A DNA stretch of 12,898 bases from an uncultured Ruminococcus sp. (GTDB lineage Bacteria > Bacillota > Clostridia > Oscillospirales > Ruminococcaceae). Shown here one piece after another: positions 1 through 12,808 of the stretch (position 1 is the first letter of the stretch; every line of letters begins with the position of its first letter). A program made the position numbers and the translations under genes. The notes beneath the pieces were generated by a model. That model was not told the DNA's origin and did no database searches. It saw only the letters and a program-made list of their open reading frames with translations. The stretch is taken from the NCBI GenBank assembly GCA_947177935.1, contig CAMWWG010000005.1:1-12898 (forward strand), written 5' to 3'.

Positions 1-962
1 AGCAGATCCGGATCGAATTTTTCAGCAAATTCCAGTTCCGGAACCTGAAAATCAACGGAATTTTCCTGTTCTGGCATTCCGGAAGATCCCAATGGCTGTA
101 AATGCAATTTTTCCAGTAATCGGAACATTTCCAGTTCTGTGAGAACTTTCCGGAGATTCTCGGAATCCTGTTTTTTCGGGAGATAATTTTGCAAATCCAG
201 AGAAACAGGTGCATTCCGGACGATCTGCGCAAGCCACCTGCTTTGGAATGCGGATTCTTTCCCCTCGGTGAGTAGTTTCCGGACTCTGGGCGTTGCCTGG
301 AATGTTTCCGGATTCTGTTCCAGATTCTGATATAAATTTTCAATACTCTGATACTTCTGAATTAAATTTTTGGCGGTTTTTTCTCCGATTCCCTTGACGC
401 CGGGAATATTATCCGAGCTGTCCCCCATCAGTGCTTTCAGGTCTACCAGATATTCCGGATCGAATCCGTAATCCTGCCGGAATTTTTCCGGCGTATACGG
501 AATTGTTTCTTTGTTTGTCAATAAATGCACGGTGACATGCTCTGTAATTAATTGCAGACTGTCCCTGTCGCCGGTCATCAGAATACATTCCTGTCCCTGC
601 TGATGACAAATATCGGCAAGCGTTCCGAGAATATCATCTGCCTCAAAGCTTTCCGCACCGCAACAGGAAATTCCCATAGATTTCAGAATTTCCTTGATAT
701 ATGGCATCTGCATGGCAAGTTCCTTCGGCATTCCCTGCCGGTTTGCCTTGTAGGATTCCACTTTTTCACGCCGGAATGTCTGCATTCCCACATCAAACGC
801 AACGGCGACCGCATCCGGTTTTACAGCATGGAACTCTTTGAGATACATATTCATGAAGCCAAAAATCGCATGTGTGAAGACCCCCTTGTGATTCGACAAC
901 GGACGCACCCCGTAATATGCCCTGTGAATCACGCTGTTTCCGTCAATGACAAGTAATCTCAT
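1..962 (-). CDS. polA: DNA polymerase I, N-terminal 5'-nuclease part (runs off the left edge)
   Basis: DNA polymerase I removes RNA primers and fills gaps in replication and repair. Only about 320 codons are in the window, covering the 5'-3' exonuclease (FEN-like) domain. The chain opens with MRLLVIDGNSVIHRAYYG, which holds a conserved metal-binding Asp. It continues with AFDVGMQTFRREK (about 59-71), FEADDILGTLA with clustered acidic metal ligands, TGDRDSLQLI, and the helix-hairpin-helix region LMGDSSDNIPGVKGIGEKTA. The frame is open to the left edge, so the polymerase domain lies outside and the gene is partial here. The ATG at 960-962 is preceded by a purine-rich AAAGGGGA site. A good promoter lies just upstream and a terminator separates it from pilT, so it is probably its own transcription unit. 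A stand-alone 5'-3' exonuclease cannot be excluded without the downstream sequence, although residues after the nuclease core run on without a stop. Confidence 0.93.
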   Translation of the reverse strand, partial: MRLLVIDGNSVIHRAYYGVRPLSNHKGVFTHAIFGFMNMYLKEFHAVKPDAVAVAFDVGMQTFRREKVESYKANRQGMPKELAMQMPYIKEILKSMGISCCGAESFEADDILGTLADICHQQGQECILMTGDRDSLQLITEHVTVHLLTNKETIPYTPEKFRQDYGFDPEYLVDLKALMGDSSDNIPGVKGIGEKTAKNLIQKYQSIENLYQNLEQNPETFQATPRVRKLLTEGKESAFQSRWLAQIVRNAPVSLDLQNYLPKKQDSENLRKVLTELEMFRLLEKLHLQPLGSSGMPEQENSVDFQVPELEFAEKFDPDL

Positions 963-1161: not shown

Positions 1162-2232
1162 TTAGCCGTTGCCGTTCAGGAATCTATAGAATTCCGCTTT
1201 GCTCTGGCATTTCTCCAAAGCGGCGGTTTCATTGACGATTCCTCTCTTGACATACCGTGCTAATTCCTGGTCAAGACACATCATGCCATGTTGTTTACCG
1301 GACTGAATCGCGGATAGTAACATGTGGGTCTTGCCGTCACGGATCATAGCGGCGCAGGCGTCCGTTACATTCAGAATTTCCATGCAGGCAACACGTCCCT
1401 TGCCGTCCATTCTCGGCAGAAGTGTCTGGGAAACAACGCCGACCAGGTTATTGGCAAGCTGTGTACGGATCTGTCCCTGTTGGTGCTCCGGATATACGTC
1501 AATAATACGATCAATGGTATCTGCGGCGGAAGTTGTATGCAGTGTGGATAATACTAAGTGTCCGGTTTCAGCAGCCGTAACGGCAGCACTGATCGTCTCA
1601 AAGTCACGCATCTCACCTACAAGAATGACATCCGGGTCTTCACGGAGTGCGGCACGGAGTGCGGCGGCAAAGTCCGGAACGTCATCGCCGACTTCTCTCT
1701 GATTCACCATGCAGAGTTTATGCTGATGGATGTACTCAATCGGATCTTCAATTGTGATGACGTGCGCACTTCTGTGCACATTGATATAATCAATCATACC
1801 TGCCAACGTGGTGGATTTACCAGAGCCGGTCGGACCTGTTACCAGGATCAGCCCACGGGGACGCATGGCAAAATCCGCAAGAACCGGCGGAAGATCCAGA
1901 TCATCCAGTGTCGGAATGTCATTTCTCAGCAGACGGATGGCAATTGCTGTATGTCCTCTCTGAAAATACACGTTCACACGGTGACGATAGCCGGCATTGG
2001 TCTGGAATGAAAAGTCTGTATCCACATGTCTGCGGACACTTGCCATCTGCATGTCATTTGTCATCTGGTTGACAATGGACATTACTTCTTCTTCATCAAG
2101 CTCCGGATATTTGGTCATTTTGCGGAGCGCACCATTCAATCTTACGATCGGATTAATGCCGTAAGTGAAGTGCAGGTCTGAACAGCCGATGGCACGGGCT
2201 TCATTCAGAATCTGGTTAATTTCGATAGCCAA
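1162..2232 (-). CDS. pilT: PilT-type retraction ATPase
   Basis: Predicted cytoplasmic hexameric ATPase that powers pilus retraction by depolymerising pilin at the PilC platform. The 356 residues match PilT length. Visible motifs are Walker A GPTGSGKS (133-140), Asp box ITIEDPIEY (159-167), Walker B DPDVILVGEMRD (199-210) and His box HLVLSTLHT (225-233). The N-terminal part (1-100) looks like the PAS-like PilT domain and lacks the long N-terminal extension and Cys pairs of PilB. The C-terminal signature is loose: AAMIRDGKTHMLLSAIQSGK (294-313) stands where PilT proteins usually carry AIRNLIRE. The start is TTG, chosen because AGGAGG sits 8 bases upstream and the sequence then reads as a normal PilT N-terminus. 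It follows pilB after 39 bases and is probably co-transcribed with it. A PilU-like accessory ATPase is the alternative. Confidence 0.9.
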   Translation of the reverse strand: MAIEINQILNEARAIGCSDLHFTYGINPIVRLNGALRKMTKYPELDEEEVMSIVNQMTNDMQMASVRRHVDTDFSFQTNAGYRHRVNVYFQRGHTAIAIRLLRNDIPTLDDLDLPPVLADFAMRPRGLILVTGPTGSGKSTTLAGMIDYINVHRSAHVITIEDPIEYIHQHKLCMVNQREVGDDVPDFAAALRAALREDPDVILVGEMRDFETISAAVTAAETGHLVLSTLHTTSAADTIDRIIDVYPEHQQGQIRTQLANNLVGVVSQTLLPRMDGKGRVACMEILNVTDACAAMIRDGKTHMLLSAIQSGKQHGMMCLDQELARYVKRGIVNETAALEKCQSKAEFYRFLNGNG

Positions 2233-2271: not shown

Positions 2272-3948
2272 TTATACAGCATAAGTTACACGCACAAGCT
2301 CATCCATGGAAGTAACGCCTTTCTGTACCAGTTCTGAAACGTTGTCACGGAGTAGCTTTGTACCGTTTTCACGGGCTTTTTCTTCAATTTCTTCTTTACT
2401 GCCGCTACGTGCCACAATCGTGGAAATCCCAGCAGTGCAGTGAATGATTTCATGAATTGCCGTTCTGCCCCGATAGCCCGTGCCATTGCATTCCGGACAG
2501 CCCTGTGCTTCATAAACCGGAATCGGTGAATAAATATCTTCCAGTTTCATGAGCTTGTTCTCGTCCTCGTCAGAATATCTCTGAACTTTGCATTTCGGAC
2601 AGAGCACTTTGACAAGTCGCTGCGCAATAACACCGATCAGAGAAGTTGCAACCATGTACGGCGCAACGCCCATGTCAACCAGACGCACAATCGTAGATGC
2701 AGCATCATTTGTATGCAGTGTAGATAATACTAAGTGTCCCGTGATAGCGGCTCTGATGCCGATGTCGGCAGTTTCGGAGTCACGCATCTCACCAATCATG
2801 ACAATATCCGGGTCCTGACGGAGGATAGAACGCAGTGCGGCGGCGAATGTCATACCAGTTTTTGCATTTACCTGTACTTGGTTAATACCATCAATGGCTT
2901 TTTCGACCGGATCTTCTACTGTGATGACGTTAACATGCGGTTTTGCCAATTCACCAAGCGCCGCATACAGCGTCGTAGTTTTACCAGAACCAGTAGGACC
3001 GGTTACCAGGATAACGCCATGCGGACATTTAATCATGGATTCAAACAGCGTATAGTTATAATCCGACATACCAAGATCTGTGATCTTACGCAGTGCGATA
3101 TTACCCGTGGACAAGATACGAATAACGATCTTTTCGCCGTTGACCATCGGGAGCGAAGATACACGGACGTCCAGTGTCGTACCATCAACGACTTGCGTGA
3201 AACGACCGTCCTGCGGAATACGCTTCTCAGCAATGTTCATGCCGGAAATCAGTTTCAGACGAGTTGCTAACGCAGTATGCACCACGTTGGAGACATTCAT
3301 CAGTTCTACTAAGTCACCATTTACACGAATCCGAATTCTGGTATATGTCTTGAACGGCTCAATATGAATATCCGTCGCATCCGCTCTGTAGGAGTTTTCC
3401 ACAATCGTCGTTGCAAGTTTTACAATCGGCGCACTCTCGACTCTGTCTCTGGAGTCATCATCCTCCACATCATTCTGTCTGAGCTGCGAAATACCTTCCA
3501 GAACGCTGTCTACGTTCTCCATAGAATACATATTACCGATTGCTTTATTAATCGCTGATTTCGTTGCCAGTACCGGAATCGTGTCCATACCGGTCTGCAT
3601 CTTGATATCTTCCAGAATATTGAAGTTAATCGGGTCGTCCGTGGCGACTGTCAGTCTGCGTCCTTGGATATTAATTGCAATGACCGTATATTTCTTGGCA
3701 AGTGTTTCCGGAATTCTGCGGACAGCGTCTTCATCAATGTCAATATTGCCCAGATCCACATACGGCACACGCAATTTTGCTGCCAGTGCCTTAGACAGGC
3801 TGACTTCAGAAATAAATCCTAATTCTACAACAGTTTCACCAAAACGCTTGCCGCCGTTTTCTTTCTGTGCTGTGAGAACCTGCTGCAACTGTTCGGCTGT
3901 GATTAACTTCTGTTCTACAAGATAATCACCAATACGAATATTTCTCAT
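2272..3948 (-). CDS. pilB: PilB-type extension ATPase with MshEN-like N-terminal domain
   Basis: Predicted cytoplasmic hexameric ATPase that drives pilin polymerisation at the PilC platform. The 558 residues match PilB/GspE size. The N-terminal 1-145 region resembles the T2SSE_N/MshEN fold, with two consecutive related motifs (from RIGDYLVEQKLITAEQLQQV at 5 and from FGETVVELGFISEVSL at 36). Then come ATDIHIEP (191-198), Walker A GPTGSGKT (317-324), Asp box TVEDPVEK (343-350), Walker B DPDIVMIGEMRD (379-390), and His box HLVLSTLHT (405-413). Cys 450/453 and Cys 484/487 form the zinc-binding tetracysteine motif typical of PilB and absent from PilT. The ATG is preceded by GGAGG about 10 bases upstream. 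It is first in the pilB-pilT unit and divergent from pilD. The com-type ATPase ComGA is less likely because of the full N-terminal domain and the zinc motif. Confidence 0.94.
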   Translation of the reverse strand: MRNIRIGDYLVEQKLITAEQLQQVLTAQKENGGKRFGETVVELGFISEVSLSKALAAKLRVPYVDLGNIDIDEDAVRRIPETLAKKYTVIAINIQGRRLTVATDDPINFNILEDIKMQTGMDTIPVLATKSAINKAIGNMYSMENVDSVLEGISQLRQNDVEDDDSRDRVESAPIVKLATTIVENSYRADATDIHIEPFKTYTRIRIRVNGDLVELMNVSNVVHTALATRLKLISGMNIAEKRIPQDGRFTQVVDGTTLDVRVSSLPMVNGEKIVIRILSTGNIALRKITDLGMSDYNYTLFESMIKCPHGVILVTGPTGSGKTTTLYAALGELAKPHVNVITVEDPVEKAIDGINQVQVNAKTGMTFAAALRSILRQDPDIVMIGEMRDSETADIGIRAAITGHLVLSTLHTNDAASTIVRLVDMGVAPYMVATSLIGVIAQRLVKVLCPKCKVQRYSDEDENKLMKLEDIYSPIPVYEAQGCPECNGTGYRGRTAIHEIIHCTAGISTIVARSGSKEEIEEKARENGTKLLRDNVSELVQKGVTSMDELVRVTYAV

Positions 3949-3991
3949 AAAACTGAAACCTCCAAATATAAAATTTTAAATAATATTTTAC

Positions 3992-4020
3992 TTGTCAAAC
4001 CTGGTAAGCTATGTTATAAT
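3992..4020 (+). promoter_or_regulatory. pilD promoter with extended -10
   Basis: -35 TTGTCA (3992-3997), a 17-base spacer and -10 TATAAT (4015-4020), with a TG one base before the -10 (extended -10). The start site would be near 4027, about 43 bases before the pilD ATG. Confidence 0.8.
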
Positions 4021-4041
4021 TATAATATATACCAATCTCAA
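4013..4041 (-). promoter_or_regulatory. Candidate pilB-pilT promoter
   Basis: On the minus strand, -35 TTGAGA (4036-4041), a 17-base spacer and -10 TATAAC (4013-4018) form a reasonable sigma-A promoter. The -10 overlaps the -10 of the opposing pilD promoter. A perfect TTGACA also occurs on this strand at 3993-3998, but without a convincing -10 at the right distance. Confidence 0.5.
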
Positions 4042-4054
4042 ATCTATCATTATC

Positions 4055-4061
4055 AAGGAGG
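4055..4061 (+). promoter_or_regulatory. Ribosome binding site that fixes the pilD start
   Basis: AAGGAGG ends 8 bases before the ATG at 4070-4072. It rules out the in-frame upstream TTG at 3992, which lies in the promoter -35 box. Confidence 0.9.
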
Positions 4062-4069
4062 GCATTTTC

Positions 4070-4960
4070 ATGCTTCACAATGAATTTATGGAACTTCCGT
4101 TCTATCTCATGTTTTACCTCATTGTTTTTTTCTATGGAATTTGTATCGGCAGTTTTCTGAATGTTGTAATTTTCCGTCTGCCGAAAAATGAATCACTGAT
4201 CAAACGTTCCTCGCATTGTATGACCTGCGGCACAAAAATCCGTGCGAGGGATAATATTCCGGTTCTTAGCTGGATGCTGCTCAAAGGCAAATGCCGCAGC
4301 TGCGGTGAACCTATCTCAAAACGCTATCCAATTGTGGAATCCCTGAATTGTGTCATTTATTTAATCACTGTCACTGTTCTGGATTTCAGCCTGCAAAGCA
4401 TTCTGTACTGCTTTTTCTTCTCAGCACTGCTCTGTATTGCTTTCATCGACTGGGACACAATGGAAATGGATCTGCGGTTATTAATCTTTATTGCTGTGCT
4501 TGCCGTTCCGGATCTGGTGCTTTCTGTGCTTGCGCTGACTGCTCCCGAATTATTTCAGAACTTGCCGCATTTTGTCACAGATCAGTCTTTGGCTTTGAGT
4601 TCCCATCTGATTGGCTTGCTTTGTATTGCCCTGCCGTTTTTCCTGATCGGTGAAATCAGTATCCCGATCATTAAGAAAAAATTCGGAGAGCGTTTCCGTG
4701 CCATTGAACTCGGTGATACGGTTCTGATGGCTGCCGGAGGATTATTAATCGGCTGGAAAGCTGTTTTAGTATCTGCATTTTTGGGAATTATCATTGCCGG
4801 CGTTTGCGGCATGATTCTCAAGAAACGTGGCGGAGAATCCAAATTTGCATTTGGTCCTTATCTTGCAATGGGTCTGTTCCTGGGAACACTGTTCGGGAAT
4901 CAGCTCTTTGACTGGTACATAGCATGGGTGACATATGATCCCTACGCAATACCTACATGA
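4070..4960 (+). CDS. pilD: Type IV prepilin peptidase / N-methyltransferase
   Basis: Predicted integral-membrane aspartic protease (family A24) that cuts the short leader of prepilins after Gly and methylates the new N-terminus. The 296 residues fit a full PilD. After a first membrane helix containing GICIGSFLNVVIFRLP (23-38) comes the cytoplasmic methyltransferase-type loop with two CxxC pairs (Cys 50/53 and 75/78). Several hydrophobic segments follow. The two catalytic Asp regions are FIDWDTMEMD (125-134) and ELGDTVL (213-219). The second departs from the usual GxGD: Glu stands in place of the first Gly, but the Asp (216) is kept. Its substrates are probably the prepilins encoded at 5031-8915. 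It is alone on the plus strand, convergent with the pilin operon, and has its own promoter and terminator. Confidence 0.93.
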   Translation: MLHNEFMELPFYLMFYLIVFFYGICIGSFLNVVIFRLPKNESLIKRSSHCMTCGTKIRARDNIPVLSWMLLKGKCRSCGEPISKRYPIVESLNCVIYLITVTVLDFSLQSILYCFFFSALLCIAFIDWDTMEMDLRLLIFIAVLAVPDLVLSVLALTAPELFQNLPHFVTDQSLALSSHLIGLLCIALPFFLIGEISIPIIKKKFGERFRAIELGDTVLMAAGGLLIGWKAVLVSAFLGIIIAGVCGMILKKRGGESKFAFGPYLAMGLFLGTLFGNQLFDWYIAWVTYDPYAIPT

Positions 4961-5030: not shown

Positions 5031-5990
5031 TTACTTGGGTGTTGTATCGATTTCAGAGCCGTAAGAATAAATAAACGTGTAGGCGCTGTTGTCGCCAGGT
5101 TCATATTTACAGCGTGCAAAGATATTTGTATATTCAGGAGAAACTAAAGTTCCTGATCCTCTGTCAACAAATGCGTTTTCCATGATCGGATTGCCAGCGG
5201 GATCTTTCTTGGGTGTGATCCCGTCCGCTTCCATTGCCTGCACCTTGTCGACACAATAATAAACACCTTTTACCGCAGAACTGGAGCCGAATACCTGATT
5301 GACCCAAGGCATTGTCATGGTAGATACAAAAGAATATTCTGTTTTGGGGCTGTCCACTGTGCTTCTGTGTGTGGTTGCCTTGATCGTGAATGCTGTATTG
5401 GACGGGCTCAAGCACTTATCAACTTCAATTGTATTCCCGGAACTACCATCAAGACTCCAGGCATCAAATTCTTCTACTGTGGCATAACTGCCGGGCTTGA
5501 TTTCAAAATCATAGGTATCATAATAAGACTTGTTTACAGCATATTCCTGATACGTCGGAGCTGAAGCAGAGATACTTCCCAGATCATCCACTGTATATGT
5601 CCATTTGCTGATTTTTCCGATCGTTCCGCTGTTGTCAATTTGAAGAACATGAAATGTTCCCTTTGCGTAATCCGGACTGTTCACATTGCTTTTTGCTCTG
5701 ACAACACCTCCGTAGTAAGTTTTAGCAAAATCTTCCACAGCAGCCTTTCTTCCGGTATCATCATATGTTGTGCATACAATACGACTGTATTCTGCTGTAG
5801 AAAGTTCACCCTCGATAAAACGACTGATATTCGTCACGGCAGCACTGCCATTCTCCTGGATTTCTGTCATGACTGTTGTTTTGTAGACAGGCATCATCAC
5901 AGAAGTAGCAGCCAGGAGAATAATGCTGAAAATCGCAATGACCACGATCAGCTCTATCAGCGTAAAACCCTTTAATTTCTTTGATTTCAT
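5031..5990 (-). CDS. PilW-like minor prepilin
   Basis: Type IV prepilin, 319 residues. The leader MKSKKLKG is followed by the classic cleavage and N-methylation site G|FTLIE, with mature Glu5 (residue 13) and a hydrophobic helix to about residue 32. The rest is a long soluble domain without obvious repeats, larger than a typical major pilin and close to PilW/PilJ-type minor pilins. That suggests a role in starting pilus assembly or in the filament tip complex. Its start is set by AAGGAGG (5998-6004), which overlaps the stop codon of the preceding pilin gene; 12 bases separate the two genes, so they are probably translationally coupled. It is the last gene of the operon. The family name is inferred from size, position and N-terminus. 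It could be an adhesive or even an abundant pilin. Confidence 0.8.
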   Translation of the reverse strand: MKSKKLKGFTLIELIVVIAIFSIILLAATSVMMPVYKTTVMTEIQENGSAAVTNISRFIEGELSTAEYSRIVCTTYDDTGRKAAVEDFAKTYYGGVVRAKSNVNSPDYAKGTFHVLQIDNSGTIGKISKWTYTVDDLGSISASAPTYQEYAVNKSYYDTYDFEIKPGSYATVEEFDAWSLDGSSGNTIEVDKCLSPSNTAFTIKATTHRSTVDSPKTEYSFVSTMTMPWVNQVFGSSSAVKGVYYCVDKVQAMEADGITPKKDPAGNPIMENAFVDRGSGTLVSPEYTNIFARCKYEPGDNSAYTFIYSYGSEIDTTPK

Positions 5991-6002
5991 GACACTTCCT
6001 CC

Positions 6003-6410
6003 TTAAGGTGCAGGTTCGATCCTGTAAAAGTCAAGATCTGCGTCCAGTCCTGAACCTGTATCACGGTTGGAACGGGAAGCCATGCAGGATGTGTCGTACT
6101 TCTTGGCATTCACAGTATACTCTTTTGCACCATACTTCACCTGGAATGTCACTTCTTCAGCGACAGGAGCGGTTTCCACTGTGCCCCCTTCGTCATCATA
6201 AAGGACAGTATTATTCTGGATTGCCGCCGCAGGTGCTTCTGCGGCGATTTTGTTATTGACATGATTGGAATTTTTGAGCAGATTCATAGCAACCTGTGTC
6301 ATTCTTACCATGATAAGCGTAGCAATGCTGAAAACAGCCATTGCAATGATACACTCAATCAGAGTCATGCCTTTGAGTTTTTTATTGTGTTTTCTGAAAA
6401 TTCTGTTCAT
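6003..6410 (-). CDS. PilV-like minor prepilin
   Basis: Small type IV prepilin, 135 residues. A 14-residue leader (MNRIFRKHNKKLKG) precedes the site G|MTLIE with mature Glu5 (residue 19) and a hydrophobic helix to about residue 36. Met as the first mature residue and the TLIECIIAMAVFSIA helix resemble PilV/GspI-type minor pilins. The remaining 100 residues form a small globular domain with a polar stretch rich in Ala, Glu and Thr (about 58-85). An AGGAGG lies 11 bases before the ATG. It sits 21 bases after the large pilin-like gene and 12 bases before the PilW-like gene, which gives the PilX-PilV-PilW type cluster seen for minor pilins. A role as the major pilin is possible but less likely given the PilV-like N-terminus. 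Confidence 0.8.
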   Translation of the reverse strand: MNRIFRKHNKKLKGMTLIECIIAMAVFSIATLIMVRMTQVAMNLLKNSNHVNNKIAAEAPAAAIQNNTVLYDDEGGTVETAPVAEEVTFQVKYGAKEYTVNAKKYDTSCMASRSNRDTGSGLDADLDFYRIEPAP

Positions 6411-6431: not shown

Positions 6432-8915
6432 TTAATAATAATTGTAATACAACGGCGTGAGACTCTGGAAGACTTCCTTTGTGCCTTCGCCTTCTCCTTC
6501 GCCCTCGCCTTCTCCTTCGCCCTCGCCTTCTCCTTCCTTAGGCAGAGTGACATACATCATGCCCCATGTGTTACCTACAACAATATCCTTGCAGATCAGC
6601 TGACCGATGACACCGCAGTCCCCGTTGGAAAATTTATCTGTTACAATGGCATTGCTGGCATCATCATACTGTGTATAAGTCGTACCGGCAGGCATTTTCG
6701 TACCGGAAGCTTGCTGATCAAATTTCAGACCTTGTGCACGGAAATGTGCTGTTGTTACAGTACCATTCAAAGCAGTATAGGTTGCTCCTTCCGCACTATA
6801 AATAATAACATTGGGATAATATTCACTTGCCTCGTTGGGCTGTACTTCGTAAACATCCAACGGCGTACCATTTTTAATTTTTTCCCGGTAGGATTTTGTC
6901 CAGAGTCCGCCATTGCCGTTTAATGTCATAGTATTGTCAATAAAAAAGTACACTGTAGAAGTATCTTCTACAACAATTTCACAACCATTGTTAAGAGAGA
7001 AACTGTCTATTTCAATAATCAGTGGCGTCGTTGCCTTTACATAAAAACTATTTGCCCAGCTTCCCTGTAAAGTGCAGGAATTTTCAATCAGATAATATCC
7101 ATTATATGGATCAGATGGATCATTTATCTTAGAAGGAGGTGCACTATTGGTATAAGTTACACTTGGCTTTGTCAATGTCGCTTCCATATCATCAATACTC
7201 TGTGGATAACTTGCGACAGTAGAAATCTTGATAATCTTGCTTTTCAGTGTTGTATCATCAAAACCGTCAGGATAAATCGGCTGACCATATTCATCCGCAA
7301 TATTATATGGCTCAAATGTTACACCAGGATCAATTGGGACATAATCTGTCAGTATTTGGCTGCCGCTCATGTCTACGATTGAAACTTTACTCATATCACA
7401 GTTGACATTTGCATTATTTTCAAACTTGTTTACACGGATTTCAGAGCAAGTGATTGTATCATTGTTGACAATCTCATAAGCAAACAGCTTGTTTGCCTGC
7501 ACAAGACCGAAATCATGGCTTCCTTGGGTTGAACCATTATTATTTTCAAGTCTGTTCGTACAGATATCACCTGTTACAATCAGTTCACCAGTAGTCACAA
7601 TTTTCTCCGCATACACATTTCCATCTACTTTCAGAACTACCTTATCAGGAATCGTCAGCGTGCCACCGACTACAAGATCTCCGCCAACATAGACATCACA
7701 GGAATTATTTGTTGGATTTCCTTCCGGACTGGTAATAGATAAATCACCATCCATGCGCACATCATTTTCAAACGTAATTACATTACTGTTGTTATTGCGG
7801 ATGATATTCAGACTTCCTTTGGAATAATAATTACCAAATTTGTAATGTTCATGCTTGTTGCCGTTTGCGTCCATGATTGTCTTGTCAACCCATTCATACA
7901 AATCTGATCTTTTCCCGCCGTTATCAACAGAACTTGTTGCAGTGGAATCAAATGTGTACACATCACCTTTCACATGAAGCCCGCCGGTTGTAATATCAAT
8001 TTTGCCTGCATAGAGATTAATTGGTGTGGTATCACTTCCAATATTAATATCCTGATAATTGCCGACATTAAATGTACCGCCGACATACACACAAGGAACC
8101 TGATAGCAGTCTGTTTCCAGATTGCTTGCCCAGTTGTTCTTTAAGTTTTCATGGTAGTCAAAAACTGCACCATTATTAAATGTGAGATCGCCCTCCACAG
8201 CAAAGAAATCGCCCAATTTTGTAAATATGGGATGCGCCTGTGTGGAAGCATAGAGACTACCTTTTACATAAAAAGGCGCTTCAATAATGGTTGTGTTCTC
8301 CAATTTGTAAGTTTTGGAACCGTCTGTATTCAGACCAATCTCCGTACCGCCGGCAACAAAACCGCTCGTACCGATATTGTCATTATCACCCAGACCACCA
8401 TAAGCGACGAATGCGCCACCACCGCCAGAAGAACCGCCAGGACTGCTGGTCGCAACACTATCATCCGCCATATACGCACAATATGTCACGCCCTCACCGG
8501 TGCTTGCCATGTAAGCTTCTGCCTTGATTTCGTAGACAGACCCATCTACCCAGTCTTTTTTCTTGGAATTATAGACGGATTTCTGCTCTGCAAGTGAAAT
8601 CGTCACCGGCACTTTCAGTCCGTCACTGCCCTCAACTTCAATGCTGATGCTGCTGCCTGTGCTAAGCTTGCTGATTTGCTCATTCAGACCGCCGGCAACG
8701 CCCTTATCTACGTCATTGATCGCCTGAATGACGGAATCAAGCGCAGCCTTAGCATTTGCCTTTGTCTGCTCTCTTTGGTAGTTTCTGTAAGCTCTCTTGT
8801 TGGCAGTCGATGCCAGCGCAAGCGTTGCCGCCAGAAACACAATCAGCACCATCATGACAGAAACGACCGTGAACAACACCGTGCCTTTTAATTTTTTCGG
8901 AGTTGTTTTCTTCAT
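6432..8915 (-). CDS. Very large PilX/GspK-like pilin-type protein with beta-solenoid-like body
   Basis: I do not recognise a named family for the whole 827-residue protein. The N-terminus looks like a pilin: basic MKKTTPKKLKG, then one hydrophobic helix (about 12-36) and an Ala-rich amphipathic stretch (to about 67), much like PilX_N. The mature position 5 would be Thr 16, not Glu, as is common in PilX- and GspK-type proteins. A Gly/Ser linker (157-167) leads to a long body with recurring turns such as VKGS (217), VEGDL (240), VGGTF (278), VKGDV (315), MDGDL (388), VGGDL (410) and VTGDI (447), resembling bactofilin-like beta-solenoids. Eleven Cys residues occur. A second domain spans about 520-790, and an (EG)9 tract (794-811) precedes the C-terminus. 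The start was set by AAGGTGG 8 bases before the ATG and by the KLKG motif. It is in the pil operon, so it is probably exported with the pilus, perhaps at the tip as an adhesin. Confidence 0.75.
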   Translation of the reverse strand: MKKTTPKKLKGTVLFTVVSVMMVLIVFLAATLALASTANKRAYRNYQREQTKANAKAALDSVIQAINDVDKGVAGGLNEQISKLSTGSSISIEVEGSDGLKVPVTISLAEQKSVYNSKKKDWVDGSVYEIKAEAYMASTGEGVTYCAYMADDSVATSSPGGSSGGGGAFVAYGGLGDNDNIGTSGFVAGGTEIGLNTDGSKTYKLENTTIIEAPFYVKGSLYASTQAHPIFTKLGDFFAVEGDLTFNNGAVFDYHENLKNNWASNLETDCYQVPCVYVGGTFNVGNYQDINIGSDTTPINLYAGKIDITTGGLHVKGDVYTFDSTATSSVDNGGKRSDLYEWVDKTIMDANGNKHEHYKFGNYYSKGSLNIIRNNNSNVITFENDVRMDGDLSITSPEGNPTNNSCDVYVGGDLVVGGTLTIPDKVVLKVDGNVYAEKIVTTGELIVTGDICTNRLENNNGSTQGSHDFGLVQANKLFAYEIVNNDTITCSEIRVNKFENNANVNCDMSKVSIVDMSGSQILTDYVPIDPGVTFEPYNIADEYGQPIYPDGFDDTTLKSKIIKISTVASYPQSIDDMEATLTKPSVTYTNSAPPSKINDPSDPYNGYYLIENSCTLQGSWANSFYVKATTPLIIEIDSFSLNNGCEIVVEDTSTVYFFIDNTMTLNGNGGLWTKSYREKIKNGTPLDVYEVQPNEASEYYPNVIIYSAEGATYTALNGTVTTAHFRAQGLKFDQQASGTKMPAGTTYTQYDDASNAIVTDKFSNGDCGVIGQLICKDIVVGNTWGMMYVTLPKEGEGEGEGEGEGEGEGEGTKEVFQSLTPLYYNYY
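6484..6537 (-). repeat. In-frame hexanucleotide repeat encoding (Glu-Gly)9
   Basis: Nine consecutive 6-base units (CCTTCG, CCTTCT, CCCTCG, CCTTCC variants on the plus strand). Two full copies of an 18-base higher-order unit lie at 6490-6507 and 6508-6525. The units differ at one or two bases, so the tract is partly degenerate. Because the unit is a multiple of three, copy-number change would alter protein length, not switch the gene off. Confidence 0.9.
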
Positions 8916-8970: not shown

Positions 8971-9792
8971 TCAGCTAAAATCCGGTTCGTCAATCGGCAT
9001 TGCATTGTAGAATGTGAGACTCAATGTGAGTTCACTTTTGCCATCGCCATTGTCCGTAACCTCACGCTGTGTTGTTGTCACATTACCTTCTTCATCTGTA
9101 GATTCGACAGTTTCCATACGGGTCTGTCCCTTGCCGAATGTATAGTCTGCAATATCAACGGATGTCACACGGATTGCATTTTCGTCTTCTTTGATTTTGT
9201 CCAGGAATAATGCCAGATTTTCTCTGGAACCTCTTACAGTCAGATCAAGTGTATTGGTCATAACTTCTGCGGTTTCTTTCTGAGAAAGTGTATTGCTTTC
9301 TTTGAGCAGGTCAGATACCTGCTGTTCATATTTGCCATTGATATCAGCATTCTCTAACAGAGAGTATGTCAGCACATTAGGCGTATAATAGTAATAATCT
9401 AGTGTCTGGGAAGCAATACCGCTTGTTGCAAAACTGGAAACTTCCAGCTCACATTCATCAATCATGGGCTGTACATACTGATCCAGAATGTAATTCGCTT
9501 TTAGATTATCAAATGTGTCATTCACAGGCTCGAATACACTGTTAACGAACAGTTCTGCGGTCTTCTCCGCCTCGCTTGCTTCTTTCTTGATATTTTCTTC
9601 CAAAGTAGGGATCTGCTGTAATTTTGCATCAATGCCCTCCCACTCGGTCTTGGTTGCCTCATAATCATCTCTGTCAGCCACAAGTTTGTTATACTTCGGA
9701 CGGATCAGTGCAAAAAATCCGGCTGCCAGAATAATAATTGCGGTCATAATGACAAGAATCATCTTGTCTCTGTAACTCATTTCACGCATCAT
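8971..9792 (-). CDS. pilO: PilO-like inner-membrane alignment protein
   Basis: Predicted bitopic membrane protein of the T4P alignment complex, 273 residues. The layout is that of PilO: a short cytoplasmic N-terminus, one membrane helix (about 11-30), a charged heptad-like coiled coil (about 34-80), then an extracytoplasmic region ending in a likely ferredoxin-like half (about 178-262: TLDLTVRGSRENLALFLDKI and later ELTLSLTFYNAM). An acidic Thr-rich insertion (about 222-250) interrupts that half. In Gram-negative systems PilO pairs with PilN; here the partner is fused to PilM and encoded immediately upstream. Two adjacent ATGs are possible; a purine-rich AAAGGGGG lies about 10 bases upstream, next to the stop of the preceding gene (17-base gap). 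Sequence similarity is weak by eye, so the name rests on topology and gene order. Confidence 0.75.
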   Translation of the reverse strand: MMREMSYRDKMILVIMTAIIILAAGFFALIRPKYNKLVADRDDYEATKTEWEGIDAKLQQIPTLEENIKKEASEAEKTAELFVNSVFEPVNDTFDNLKANYILDQYVQPMIDECELEVSSFATSGIASQTLDYYYYTPNVLTYSLLENADINGKYEQQVSDLLKESNTLSQKETAEVMTNTLDLTVRGSRENLALFLDKIKEDENAIRVTSVDIADYTFGKGQTRMETVESTDEEGNVTTTQREVTDNGDGKSELTLSLTFYNAMPIDEPDFS

Positions 9793-9809: not shown

Positions 9810-11471
9810 TTATTCAGCAGCCGGCTCAGCGTCTGCTGTTGTTTCTTCCGGAACAGTTTCTTCTACAATTTCAGGCAGTTCCTCCGGCAGCATGGTCAGT
9901 GTCAGATTGAAAGAAACGATTTTATTTGTGTTATTAGAACCCTCTGCACTGACAGTGCCTGCGACTGCATAACCATCATATGTAACGGAAGAAAACATAC
10001 GATTATCCTGCTCAGACGCTTCCTCGCCGTAAGTCTCATAGAGATACTGTACCAGATTGGACGGATATTTTTGCGTGAACTCTTCCGATGTTTCAATCAT
10101 CACCGGAACAACCAGGACGCCATTATCATAAGAAACGGAAATTGTCGGACTCTCGCTTGTACCATCTGTTTGACTCATCACTGTCTCAACAGCTTCATCA
10201 ATCGCATCATAGACGGCAATATCCACAACAGGCAGTGTCTTATAAGCATCACTGGCACTATTGATATTATCTGCATAGGTACGGACAACATCTTTCATTA
10301 CTTGCAAATCTTCATAATGCTGTAATTTTGCTGCTGTTTCGGGAGACTCAATCTCAGCCCGGAGGTTTGCTGTATCTTTTTTATAATTGCCGTCCATCAC
10401 AGCCAGAACGCCGAATGCCGCTGCTACAACAATTGCACTCAGACCGATACCGACACCGGCAATGACTGCAAATGAACCGTTATCCTGTACTTTTCCGGCA
10501 ACACCTGCCTCCGCCATACTGGTCTCTAACAGGTTAATATATTCTGTGAGTTTGTCACGCTTGAACATTGCACCAATGGCATTGGCATAAACTGCAAACT
10601 CCAGTTTTTCTGTGCCATGGATCTGTGCAGGCATGGCAAGTCGGGTCGATGTGATTTCGTCTTTTTTCAGCACTTCTTCCAGTCTGTTGTACAGATCCGG
10701 AGAGGCATTCAGATCACCATAGAATACAACATTGTAAATTTCTTCCGAACCACGGATTCTTGCAAACTGGAGCATACGCCCGATGTTCTCGTTGACTGCC
10801 TCATAGATATAGTCGTCCGGATTGTCATAGTCTTCCGGATCAATCGGCGCAAAACGTGAGAACGAAAGTTCACTTTCTTCATACAGGTTCAAGCTGATGA
10901 AATCCTTGTCAATCTGTACAGCCAGAAGCGGCATTTTTGCCTTGTTCTTGGCATCTGCAAGCAACACTTTGGTGATAGCATTACAACCAATCATAACAGA
11001 CTTGAGTGTAATACCGAGCATACGGAAAATAGCTCTATAACTGTCAATGACGTCACGGGGACATGCCGTTGCAAGAATTTTCTGCATTTTTTCGCCGTTG
11101 GCATCCTGTTGCGGTTCACCTACAATTGTATAGCCTACAGCGTAGGAATCATCAATGTTGAGCTGATTGCTCAGTTCCAGACGGACGCTTTTCATGAATT
11201 CCGATTCTTTGGGATTCGGCGGGATCATGAGTTCCTTGAAGACAGTCTGGTTTGAGGAAATTGAAATAATAGCCTCTTTGTCGGCGATATTCGCCGCTTT
11301 CATAGTCTTGATGATTTGGGCAACAACACGGTTCGGATCGTTGACGTGTCCGTTGACAATGAGCGCCTCGTCGAGTTTAATCTCTGCTGCATTGGTCACA
11401 CGGATCTTGTTGCCGCTTTCTGTACCCTTCACAAACCGGATACTTCTGTCAGTAATATCAAATGAAAGCAT
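9810..11471 (-). CDS. PilM-PilN fusion protein (actin-like ATPase fold plus membrane assembly domain)
   Basis: Predicted inner-membrane assembly protein of 553 residues that joins two usually separate proteins. Residues 1-300 look like PilM: an opening LSFDITDRSIRFVKG phosphate-loop-like strand, GCNAITKVL (162-170) and AVQIDKDFISLNLYEES (184-200). At 309-316 the sequence reads TEYINLLE, matching the INLLP motif by which PilN's cytoplasmic tail docks on PilM. One membrane helix follows (about 334-358), then a likely coiled coil (362-400) and a PilN-like extracytoplasmic domain (about 410-528). The C-terminal tail (529-553) is Pro/Glu/Thr rich and acidic. The length roughly equals PilM plus PilN, and no separate pilN exists before pilO. 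The start has AGAGGTGG 8 bases upstream. A 72-base AT-rich gap separates it from pilC. Confidence 0.85.
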   Translation of the reverse strand: MLSFDITDRSIRFVKGTESGNKIRVTNAAEIKLDEALIVNGHVNDPNRVVAQIIKTMKAANIADKEAIISISSNQTVFKELMIPPNPKESEFMKSVRLELSNQLNIDDSYAVGYTIVGEPQQDANGEKMQKILATACPRDVIDSYRAIFRMLGITLKSVMIGCNAITKVLLADAKNKAKMPLLAVQIDKDFISLNLYEESELSFSRFAPIDPEDYDNPDDYIYEAVNENIGRMLQFARIRGSEEIYNVVFYGDLNASPDLYNRLEEVLKKDEITSTRLAMPAQIHGTEKLEFAVYANAIGAMFKRDKLTEYINLLETSMAEAGVAGKVQDNGSFAVIAGVGIGLSAIVVAAAFGVLAVMDGNYKKDTANLRAEIESPETAAKLQHYEDLQVMKDVVRTYADNINSASDAYKTLPVVDIAVYDAIDEAVETVMSQTDGTSESPTISVSYDNGVLVVPVMIETSEEFTQKYPSNLVQYLYETYGEEASEQDNRMFSSVTYDGYAVAGTVSAEGSNNTNKIVSFNLTLTMLPEELPEIVEETVPEETTADAEPAAE

Positions 11472-11543: not shown

Positions 11544-12740
11544 TTATGCAGCAATCGCATCGAATGAGCCATAGAGTGCCGGGAAGATAGATGCCAATAA
11601 CAAGCCGACTGCCACACCCATGATAATGATCATCACCGGTTCGAGCATTCCAACCAGACGACCAACGGCAGAGTCTGCTTCTTCGTCGTAGTAGTCAGCC
11701 GTTTTGCTCAGGATGGTATCCAATGCACCGGCTTCTTCACCGACATAGATAATGGAGCAGAACATGGAGTCAAAAATTTCGGTTCTCTGAATTGCAGCAG
11801 AGAGCGTTTCGCCCTGTTTTACTTCATCAATGACATTTTCGAAACACTCACTGATATAGAGATTGCCTAAAATATCAGAAGATCTTCTCAGACAGTCCAC
11901 CATCGGAATACCAGAAGAATACAGAGAGGAAAGTGTGCTTGCAAAACGTGCGGTGTAGACTTTTACAACCAATGGGCCAAATCCTGGACCCTTGATAATG
12001 AGTTTATCCCATTTGAGACGGGTGCTCGGAATTTTCATAATGTACATGAAAGCAAAGATAATACCAATGACAACGATCACATAAATATACCAGTATTGAA
12101 TCAAGGAGTCACTGAATCCCATCATGACTTTGGTCAGCGCCGGCATGGCATCTGGGTCTTCATACATGCCTGCAAATGTCGGCATGATGAAAGCGAACAT
12201 GAAGATAACAATGACAATACAGAGTACGCCTAAGATAATCGGGTAAGTGATGGCGCCCTTGATGGTGTTGTTCATTTTGTTCTGTTTTTGGTAATAATCC
12301 GACAAATCCTGTGAAATTGTGTCCAGCGAACCAGAAGTTTCACCTGCGGCAATCATGGAAATCATGAATTCCGGGAAAACGCCTCTGTACTGTGCAAGGG
12401 AATCAGAGAATGACTCACCTTTCTGAACGCTTTCATAAACGCTCTGCCAGAGTTCCTTTGCGTCCTCGGTCGGCTGCTCCTTGCTGAGGATGTCCAAAGC
12501 CTTAACGAGCGTCAGACCGGAAGTCAGCATTGCTGCAAGCTGTCTGCAGTTAAACGCCAGGTCTTTGGTGCTGAATTTCTTAATTGTCTTTTTCTTTTCG
12601 ATGTCTTTTTCCTCGTACTTGGTAACTGTCAGACCTTTTTCCTTGGCTTTTGCCGCAAATTCTCTTGCGTCCTCAGCGTTGATAGTACCCTTGACCTGCT
12701 TACCCGCAGCAGTGGTTGCAACGTAGGAAAAACTTTTCAT
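11544..12740 (-). CDS. pilC: PilC-type inner-membrane platform protein
   Basis: Predicted polytopic platform protein (GspF/PilC family) on which PilB and PilT act to move pilins into or out of the fibre. It has 398 residues, the usual length. Two related T2SSF domains are visible, with matching motifs GETSGSLD (133-140) and GEEAGALD (334-341), each following a helical cytoplasmic segment. Membrane helices are at about 165-190, 213-236 and 367-390, and an N-terminal extension (1-55) begins SFSYVATTAAGKQVKG as in family members. The ATG at 12738-12740 is chosen because GGAGGTGG lies just upstream; the in-frame reading from 12791 would add 17 residues without a ribosome site. It is first in the minus-strand pil operon and is driven by the promoter at 12809-12837. 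Confidence 0.95.
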   Translation of the reverse strand: MKSFSYVATTAAGKQVKGTINAEDAREFAAKAKEKGLTVTKYEEKDIEKKKTIKKFSTKDLAFNCRQLAAMLTSGLTLVKALDILSKEQPTEDAKELWQSVYESVQKGESFSDSLAQYRGVFPEFMISMIAAGETSGSLDTISQDLSDYYQKQNKMNNTIKGAITYPIILGVLCIVIVIFMFAFIMPTFAGMYEDPDAMPALTKVMMGFSDSLIQYWYIYVIVVIGIIFAFMYIMKIPSTRLKWDKLIIKGPGFGPLVVKVYTARFASTLSSLYSSGIPMVDCLRRSSDILGNLYISECFENVIDEVKQGETLSAAIQRTEIFDSMFCSIIYVGEEAGALDTILSKTADYYDEEADSAVGRLVGMLEPVMIIIMGVAVGLLLASIFPALYGSFDAIAA

Positions 12741-12744
12741 TCGA

Positions 12745-12752
12745 CCACCTCC
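12745..12752 (-). promoter_or_regulatory. Ribosome binding site that fixes the pilC start
   Basis: GGAGGTGG, with the GGAGG core 7 bases before the ATG at 12738-12740. Confidence 0.85.
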
Positions 12753-12808
12753 AATAAAATTTGGTTTGTATTTGCAAGAATATTTCAGCATAATACTCCA
12801 GTATCTTA

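Follow-up and report, generated by a model that had tools for sequence, protein, structure and literature searches.

A Glu5-less pilin with a predicted inserted beta-solenoid as candidate tip adhesin of a retractable type IV pilus in Ruminococcus

Gene X and the surrounding pilus locus

We characterized a 12.9-kb contig of an uncultured Ruminococcus sp. (CAMWWG010000005.1; hereafter the window, meaning the whole stretch of DNA analysed), which belongs to a 251-contig assembly judged 57.6% complete. Its nine long genes form one type IV pilus (T4P) locus, with pilD on the plus strand and the other eight on the minus strand. Among them, gene X (6432..8915, minus strand) encodes a pilin-type protein of 827 amino acids with a predicted inserted beta-solenoid, and its open reading frame, an AlphaFold2 (AF2) model, homologues and synteny make it a candidate tip minor pilin and adhesin.

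X runs from an ATG at 8915 to a stop at 6432, with AAAGGTGG just upstream; an alternative upstream ATG at 9005 would give 857 amino acids, and the start at 8915 is preferred because both the leader and the homologues point to it. The first 11 residues, MKKTTPKKLKG (8883..8915), constitute a putative class III-type leader peptide, as indicated by the sequence and by conservation of Gly-1. The leader is followed by TVLFTVVSVMMVLIVFLAATLALAS, and with the mature protein starting as TVLFTVVSV, mature residue 5 is Thr. A hydrophobic to amphipathic helix spans residues 12-69 (8709..8882) in the AF2 model, so that X combines a short basic leader ending in Gly with a hydrophobic helix, as expected of a prepilin and as kept in its homologues.

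We found at least 129 homologues of X at E ≤ 0.001, scoring being confined to the 7994 best candidates. In alignment A1, composed of the window protein and 119 of 120 listed homologues, one row lacks its start, and both Gly-1 and Thr5 were invariant in the remaining rows (119/119 with a letter). Across 81 loci, namely the window and 80 fetched loci, all picked because they contain X, mature position 5 was Thr in 79, Ala in two (L102 and L113, which start KG/TVLLAVV) and Glu in none. Given the two Ala5 loci, Thr itself is not essential, and the general feature is only the absence of Glu. The two pilins encoded next to X retain Glu5 (45/45 and 38/38 rows with a letter, the second having seven gaps). 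The sequence-only reading of this DNA had proposed a pilin-like N-terminus without Glu5, which these counts bear out. GspK and PilX also lack Glu5, and in this respect X agrees with tip pilins of that type. A plain membrane or signal-peptide protein was ruled out, as the leader, the conservation of Gly-1 and Thr5, the operon and the pilin head all agree.

Directly downstream of X lie two minor pilin genes with Glu5, both with N_methyl matches over the cut-off: one PilV/GspI-like (6003..6410, minus; gspI E 3.4e-5, under its cut-off) and one PilW/GspJ-like (5031..5990, minus; PRK10557 E 1.6e-5 and gspJ E 7e-5, both under their cut-offs). These family matches agree with the earlier placement of X just before PilV- and PilW-like genes. 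Upstream on the same strand are a PilO-like (T2SSM-like) protein (8971..9792; T2SSM E 1.7e-4, 22.3 bits against a cut-off of 27.8, and position), PilM, probably fused to PilN (9810..11471; PilM_2 over its cut-off at residues 5-206, with the PilN part suggested by length), and the platform protein PilC (11544..12791; T2SSF E 1.6e-59). Beyond the minor pilins follow the prepilin peptidase PilD (3992..4960, plus; A24_N_bact E 2.9e-33 and Peptidase_A24), the extension ATPase PilB (2272..3948, minus; T2SSE E 2.6e-128 with MshEN) and, adjoining it, the retraction ATPase PilT (1162..2232, minus; T2SSE E 1.9e-51).

Predicted fold and likeness to ComZ and tapirins

In the AF2 model, the helix leads into a pilin head formed by a beta-meander (residues 89-151, 8463..8651). 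A Gly/Ser linker, noted before from the sequence, enters the inserted body (residues 156-168, 8412..8450; predicted local distance difference test score, pLDDT, <50 at 156-165). The first part of the beta-solenoid occupies residues 169-461 (7533..8411), and the VxGDL/VGGTL turns described earlier are indeed present in X, for example as VEGDL, MDGDL and VGGDLVVGGTL. A hypervariable, partly disordered excursion follows (residues 462-540, 7296..7532), recognized by A1 conservation (information 0.46-0.62 and occupancy 0.34-0.56 at 461-540), by pLDDT <50 at 462-467 and 487-527, and by a trough in DNA identity between loci L054 and L045. The second part of the body (residues 541-795, 6531..7295), modelled mainly as helix and coil at 541-585 and as strands thereafter, lies inside the range matched by tapirins. 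What had been called a C-terminal acidic tract exists as an acidic stretch, but it is an (EG)n acidic/Gly linker out of the body (residues 796-817, 6465..6530; pLDDT <50 at 797-811) and is followed by the aromatic strand PLYYNYY (residues 819-826, 6438..6461), which is modelled as a strand with a mean pLDDT of 89 over residues 821-827. At least two aromatics within the last six residues were found in 115 of 120 rows, against about 11% expected from composition, and two of the other five carry 'partial' in their names. Supported also by the range of the pilin match, this strand is likely to be the final one of the pilin fold.

A fold-search match to a minor pilin spanned residues 40..827 in the model of X and 40..943 in that of a second homologue; these ranges give the first and last aligned residue only, and strand pairing is not read from them. 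Given that the match runs to the last residue in both models, the body appears to be inserted before the last pilin strand rather than appended, as in ComZ of Thermus thermophilus. The predicted order in X, with head strands to residue 151, body at 161-792 and last strand at 819-826, is repeated in the second homologue. The suggestion of a tip protein with a large display domain thus fits the Glu5-less N-terminus, the solenoid and the minor-pilin place, but not in the form of a simply appended domain. ComZ (PDB 6qvi) was the first Foldseek row for both models and, like X, is found among minor pilins and lacks Glu5, having Gly instead; X follows the ComZ plan on a larger scale, with the same predicted architecture and insertion point. 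ComZ has been argued to sit at the tip (PMC6561018).

For the body, tapirins of Caldicellulosiruptor (PDB 6n2c, 6n2b and 4wa0; NCBIfam NF051896) were the best among the matches listed for both models, which stand for two homologues of low identity with a similar predicted body. EtpA and ice-binding proteins also scored well with X, and yeast adhesins were present for the second model. GspK and bactofilin were absent among the fold matches listed for both models, as was ComZ from the second such list, which excludes nothing. The body proposed from the sequence alone as a bactofilin-type solenoid is therefore a large predicted beta-solenoid, but not a bactofilin, either by family match (no Pfam family at E ≤ 1) or by best fold, where tapirin, EtpA and ice-binding proteins rank higher. 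A PDB sequence search with the single X protein gave no match at E ≤ 1, and the best PHROGs match of X had E 0.33, leaving a phage origin without support.

Tapirins are reportedly specific to extreme thermophiles. Searching 398 genomes of the phylum with a 93-residue tapirin piece, we found them in three, all of one genus, with two copies each, while X was found in one copy. In two of these three genomes (G380 and G211) the tapirin genes lie in a T4P operon, where the first comes after pilB, pilT, pilC, pilins, pilD, more pilins, a pilM-like or pilM-sized gene, a PilO-like gene and a minor pilin, and the second is slightly downstream, in G211 past two other frames. These are two open reading frames between the tapirin genes (L143, 2677-6181), and none separate those of G380. 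The NCBIfam tapirin model matched 11 of 11 aligned tapirins, one of which also matched PilX_N (E 0.0062). The tapirin N-terminus is a prepilin-like helix (e.g., NG/SVLIVV) with Val or Ile at position 5 in 11/11, in contrast to Thr in X. Profile comparison gave a gapless alignment of X residues 3-65 with tapirin, in which the two Gly-1 positions coincide, with probabilities of 89.6 (profile A3), 79.7 (A1) and 90.1 (A2); a separate N-terminal run gave 87.9, and 20 column shuffles at most 1.3. With both trimmed, X and tapirin reached 96.3 over 62 columns, whereas X against the full-length neighbouring pilins reached 65.0 over 23 columns and 85.1 over 38. Body-only profiles gave a probability of 80.4 over 70 columns (at most 1.4 in 20 shuffles), on which we do not rely because beta-helix repeats can align by chance; body sequence similarity is weak.

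Distribution, co-divergence and exchange

The 80 fetched loci come mainly from records titled as Ruminococcus, Oscillospiraceae or Clostridia metagenome-assembled genomes, together with named R. flavefaciens strains, and many isolate names cite herbivore gut sources. The order pilMN-pilO-X was found in 81/81 loci, and X was followed by one or more prepilin-like genes and then inverted pilD in 75, with the contig ending in the other six. Given this position after pilO throughout, in loci chosen for X, and the number of homologues, X and its place are not due to chance. Among 61 relatives, X was present in 34, all of them among the 37 that share the window's genus, whereas the 24 from other families had none. 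PilM was present in 35 of the 37 and in six of the 24; in the single same-genus genome with PilM but without X, PilM sits at a contig end. Across the whole family, a profile search matched 89 of 297 genomes, belonging to 40 of 126 genera, some matches being short and local and about 70 (hand count) covering the N-terminus within a frame of at least 500 codons. One genome, G012, had two X matches at the ends of two contigs, each broken within X and with differing overlapping ends, and may represent a strain mixture or carry a second X copy.

Conservation of X is strong at the N-terminus and weak in the body, as the sequence-only reading had predicted: mean pairwise identity over 45 loci was 0.64 at residues 10-58 and 0.17-0.30 in the other stretches measured. 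The helix of X was also more conserved than those of PilV (0.41) and PilW (0.49). Over their length, the two small pilins (6003-6410 and 5031-5990) had mean identities of 0.31 and 0.28, compared with 0.83 for PilB, and since they diverge as fast as X, they belong to the variable unit. Distances of X, PilV and PilW inter-correlated beyond the pilus backbone (0.61, 0.66 and 0.60 for the three pairs; 45 loci with unambiguous gene assignments; p 0.001 for each pair in 999 permutations), while X against backbone genes gave 0.12 for PilO, -0.18 for PilC, 0.25 for PilD and 0.22 for PilT, the last two weakly positive. Among other genes, PilB-PilT reached 0.56 and PilMN-PilD 0.45. In the 40 closest pairs listed, X, PilV and PilW mostly changed faster than other genes yet in step with them.

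Some pairs differ abruptly. In L057 and L047, the flanking PilC, PilMN, PilO, PilD, PilB and PilT are 0.93-1.00 identical and the X helix 0.92, while the rest of X is 0.27-0.35, PilV 0.43 and PilW 0.40; at the DNA level, the drop in identity starts about 60 codons inside X and stops at the end of pilW. A similar step separates L101 and L062, whose flanks are less uniform (PilO 0.70, X helix 0.67, PilB 0.99) and whose X body, PilV and PilW are at 0.22-0.25. The window and G012 share 96% identity in PilC, 86% in PilMN, 91% in PilO and 91% in the X helix on one G012 contig, and on the other 25-34% in the X body, 42% in PilV, 36% in PilW, 94% in PilD, 97% in PilB and 95% in PilT. Among the 12 pairs lowest in X identity, out of 45 pairs with PilMN ≥0.75, PilO exceeded 0.9 only in L057/L047. 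X, PilV and PilW vary as one unit and seem to be exchanged en bloc on occasion. That the three vary jointly suggests that lineages switch the target of their pili. In L054 and L045, near relatives without such an exchange, the most divergent stretch of the operon lies inside X (L054, 11160-11700), in the hypervariable excursion region.

Proposed function, alternatives and other pilin genes

We consider it probable that X is a tip minor pilin, in the position of GspK or PilX, carrying a beta-helix adhesin on a retractable type IV pilus. PilD would cleave the prepilin after KKLKG, and the helix would enter the membrane where, lacking Glu5, it would require no subunit ahead. Together with the PilV/GspI-like and PilW/GspJ-like pilins, which it would contact, X would cap and prime the fibre, which PilB would extend and PilT would retract after binding, drawing the cell to what X holds. 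Variation of X, PilV and PilW as a unit and their apparent block swaps are what one would expect of tip components that are exposed and matched to one another. GspK/PilX-type tip pilins likewise pair with GspI-like and GspJ-like pilins. GspK has an inserted domain (PMC6561018), but this is alpha-helical and at another insertion point, and no PilX_N or GspK family matched X. In Streptococcus sanguinis, the pilins PilB and PilC present a bulky adhesion module, and PilB has been argued to sit at the tip (PMC8179133); there, a vWA or lectin-like module is appended after the pilin part, in contrast to the inserted beta-helix of X. A pilin adhesin with a bactofilin-like motif inside a pilin gene cluster, likened to X by its published description only, belongs to another phylum and locus (PMC4376143). 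X appears to be of a known kind, a modular or inserted-domain pilin, while its lineage, tapirin-like body and cassette-like exchange appear new. A literature search that reached few subscription papers turned up no description of X as a tip adhesin, which does not show that none has been published.

The ligand of X is most likely a plant cell-wall polysaccharide or carbohydrate, a reading by analogy to which we give about an even chance and which rests on the likeness of the body to tapirins, the many dockerins of the host and published work on ruminococcal pili and cellulose. Tapirins bind cellulose with micromolar affinity (PMC7142884). The window's genome has 49 dockerin matches, and all 23 same-genus genomes searched contain dockerins (49 to at least 128 each), so that these genomes look like those of cellulosome-type fibre degraders. 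For two decades, type IV pili have been associated with the attachment of R. albus to cellulose, and pili are linked to cellulose in both R. albus and R. flavefaciens (PMC3672088, PMC6916266, PMC13234629, PMC8092306); in a gnotobiotic sheep rumen, pilus genes accounted for 14% of expression in R. albus and 4% in R. flavefaciens (PMC8092306), and a 2019 review considered it unclear whether the major pilin of R. albus itself binds (PMC6916266). In R. flavefaciens 007c, locus L120 encodes a 943-amino-acid X homologue between pilO and two pilins. The unassigned OrfX listed for the pilus cluster of strain 007C (PMC3672088) may be this homologue, although pilO also seems to go unnamed there and OrfX could be either. 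X thus offers a specific candidate, amenable to cloning, for the part of the pilus that binds.

We regard X as working like tapirin or ComZ and do not claim membership of the tapirin family. A bolder hypothesis, held tentatively and at somewhat less than even confidence, is that X and tapirins form one lineage of pilus-tip adhesins, namely minor pilins that lack Glu5, have a beta-helix set into the pilin fold and are encoded in the T4P operons of cellulolytic Clostridia whose habitats range from hot springs to the rumen; that the tip complex of Ruminococcaceae (X body, PilV and PilW) is an exchangeable cassette with the conserved helix of X at one border and the pilD end at the other; and that X is the missing cellulose receptor of ruminococcal pili, making fibre attachment retractable. 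If true, the link would recast tapirins as tip pilins and provide structural templates for how pili grip plant fibre.

Several results set limits to these interpretations. The Pfam scan of X gave zero families at E ≤ 1, thus no N_methyl (PF07963), which matches both neighbouring pilins, no Bactofilin (PF04519), and neither PilX_N nor T2SSK, so that the PilX/GspK affiliation raised by the sequence-only reading received no family support; of the five families that 51 relatives matched at E ≤ 0.01, none was PilX_N, T2SSK or an equivalent either. NCBIfam matches were all far under the cut-off, including ComGG (residues 7-68, E 0.032) and FtsL (E 0.015). Tip pilins without Glu5 are often missed by N_methyl-type family models. 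ComZ escaped PilFind (PMC6561018). As for tapirins, X did not match model NF051896 at E ≤ 1, the head regions do not align, and a PDB search with profile A2 did not find tapirins. Tapirin also aligned with the neighbouring pilins (83.6 and, for PilW, 94.3, with lengths unmatched), so the N-terminal signal is partly common to all pilin helices and constitutes support, not proof. Linkage alone could move adjacent genes together, although pilO and pilD, which flank the trio, track it only weakly. Finally, dockerins also occurred in 7 of 14 order-mates and are not confined to X-bearing genomes.

An adhesin at the tip need not hold plant fibre, and binding of host mucus, other bacteria or another surface is a possible but rather unlikely alternative. 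It would suit the breadth of the family noted above, the highly diverse body and the many things that beta-helices bind, EtpA and ice-binding proteins being good matches and yeast adhesins appearing for the second model; tapirin as the best listed fold match in both models, the dockerin-rich genus and the tie of ruminococcal pili to cellulose (PMC3672088, PMC6916266) argue against it. A body that is mere decoration on an assembly primer, varying mostly through escape from pilus-specific phages, seems unlikely to us: phage pressure would equally cause X, PilV and PilW to diverge and be exchanged together, and a tip minor pilin of a similar sort, CofB/TcpB, can be a phage receptor (PMC8179133), but the similar predicted body of two low-identity homologues and the conserved aromatic C-terminal strand suggest that a body function is retained.

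We deem it improbable that X binds DNA as the tip receptor of a DNA-uptake pilus, the role proposed for ComZ, whose architecture and insertion point it shares; a ComEC-type Competence domain occurs in 37/37 genomes, making competence genes non-discriminating. A bactofilin-type cytoskeletal polymer is far less plausible, even though database names among the homologues include 'polymer-forming cytoskeletal protein', the Bactofilin model matched 15 of 51 relatives at E ≤ 0.01, and bactofilin 2n3d matched at E 0.0099 over profile positions 373-446. This match covers about 74 of 792 profile positions, and such a polymer is hard to square with the prepilin leader, the pilin head, the operon and a body that is far larger; with local matches only, we rejected a bactofilin identity.

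Another contig carries three more N_methyl proteins, which are probably the major pilins. L126 (G000, contig C72) has three pilin genes at 788-1309, about 1407-1983 and 3547-4113, the middle one inverted, with about 220 nucleotides in common around their 5' ends (91-92% identical), an inverted repeat with 231-nucleotide arms (754-984 and 1753-1983) and a tyrosine recombinase (Phage_integrase, 2482-3504) between the second and third gene, making it a candidate invertible or phase-variable major pilin locus. In G032, pilD and pilB are separated by a 150-amino-acid frame that is similar to the N-terminal part of PilB (L029, 14299-14751), an apparent partial duplicate.

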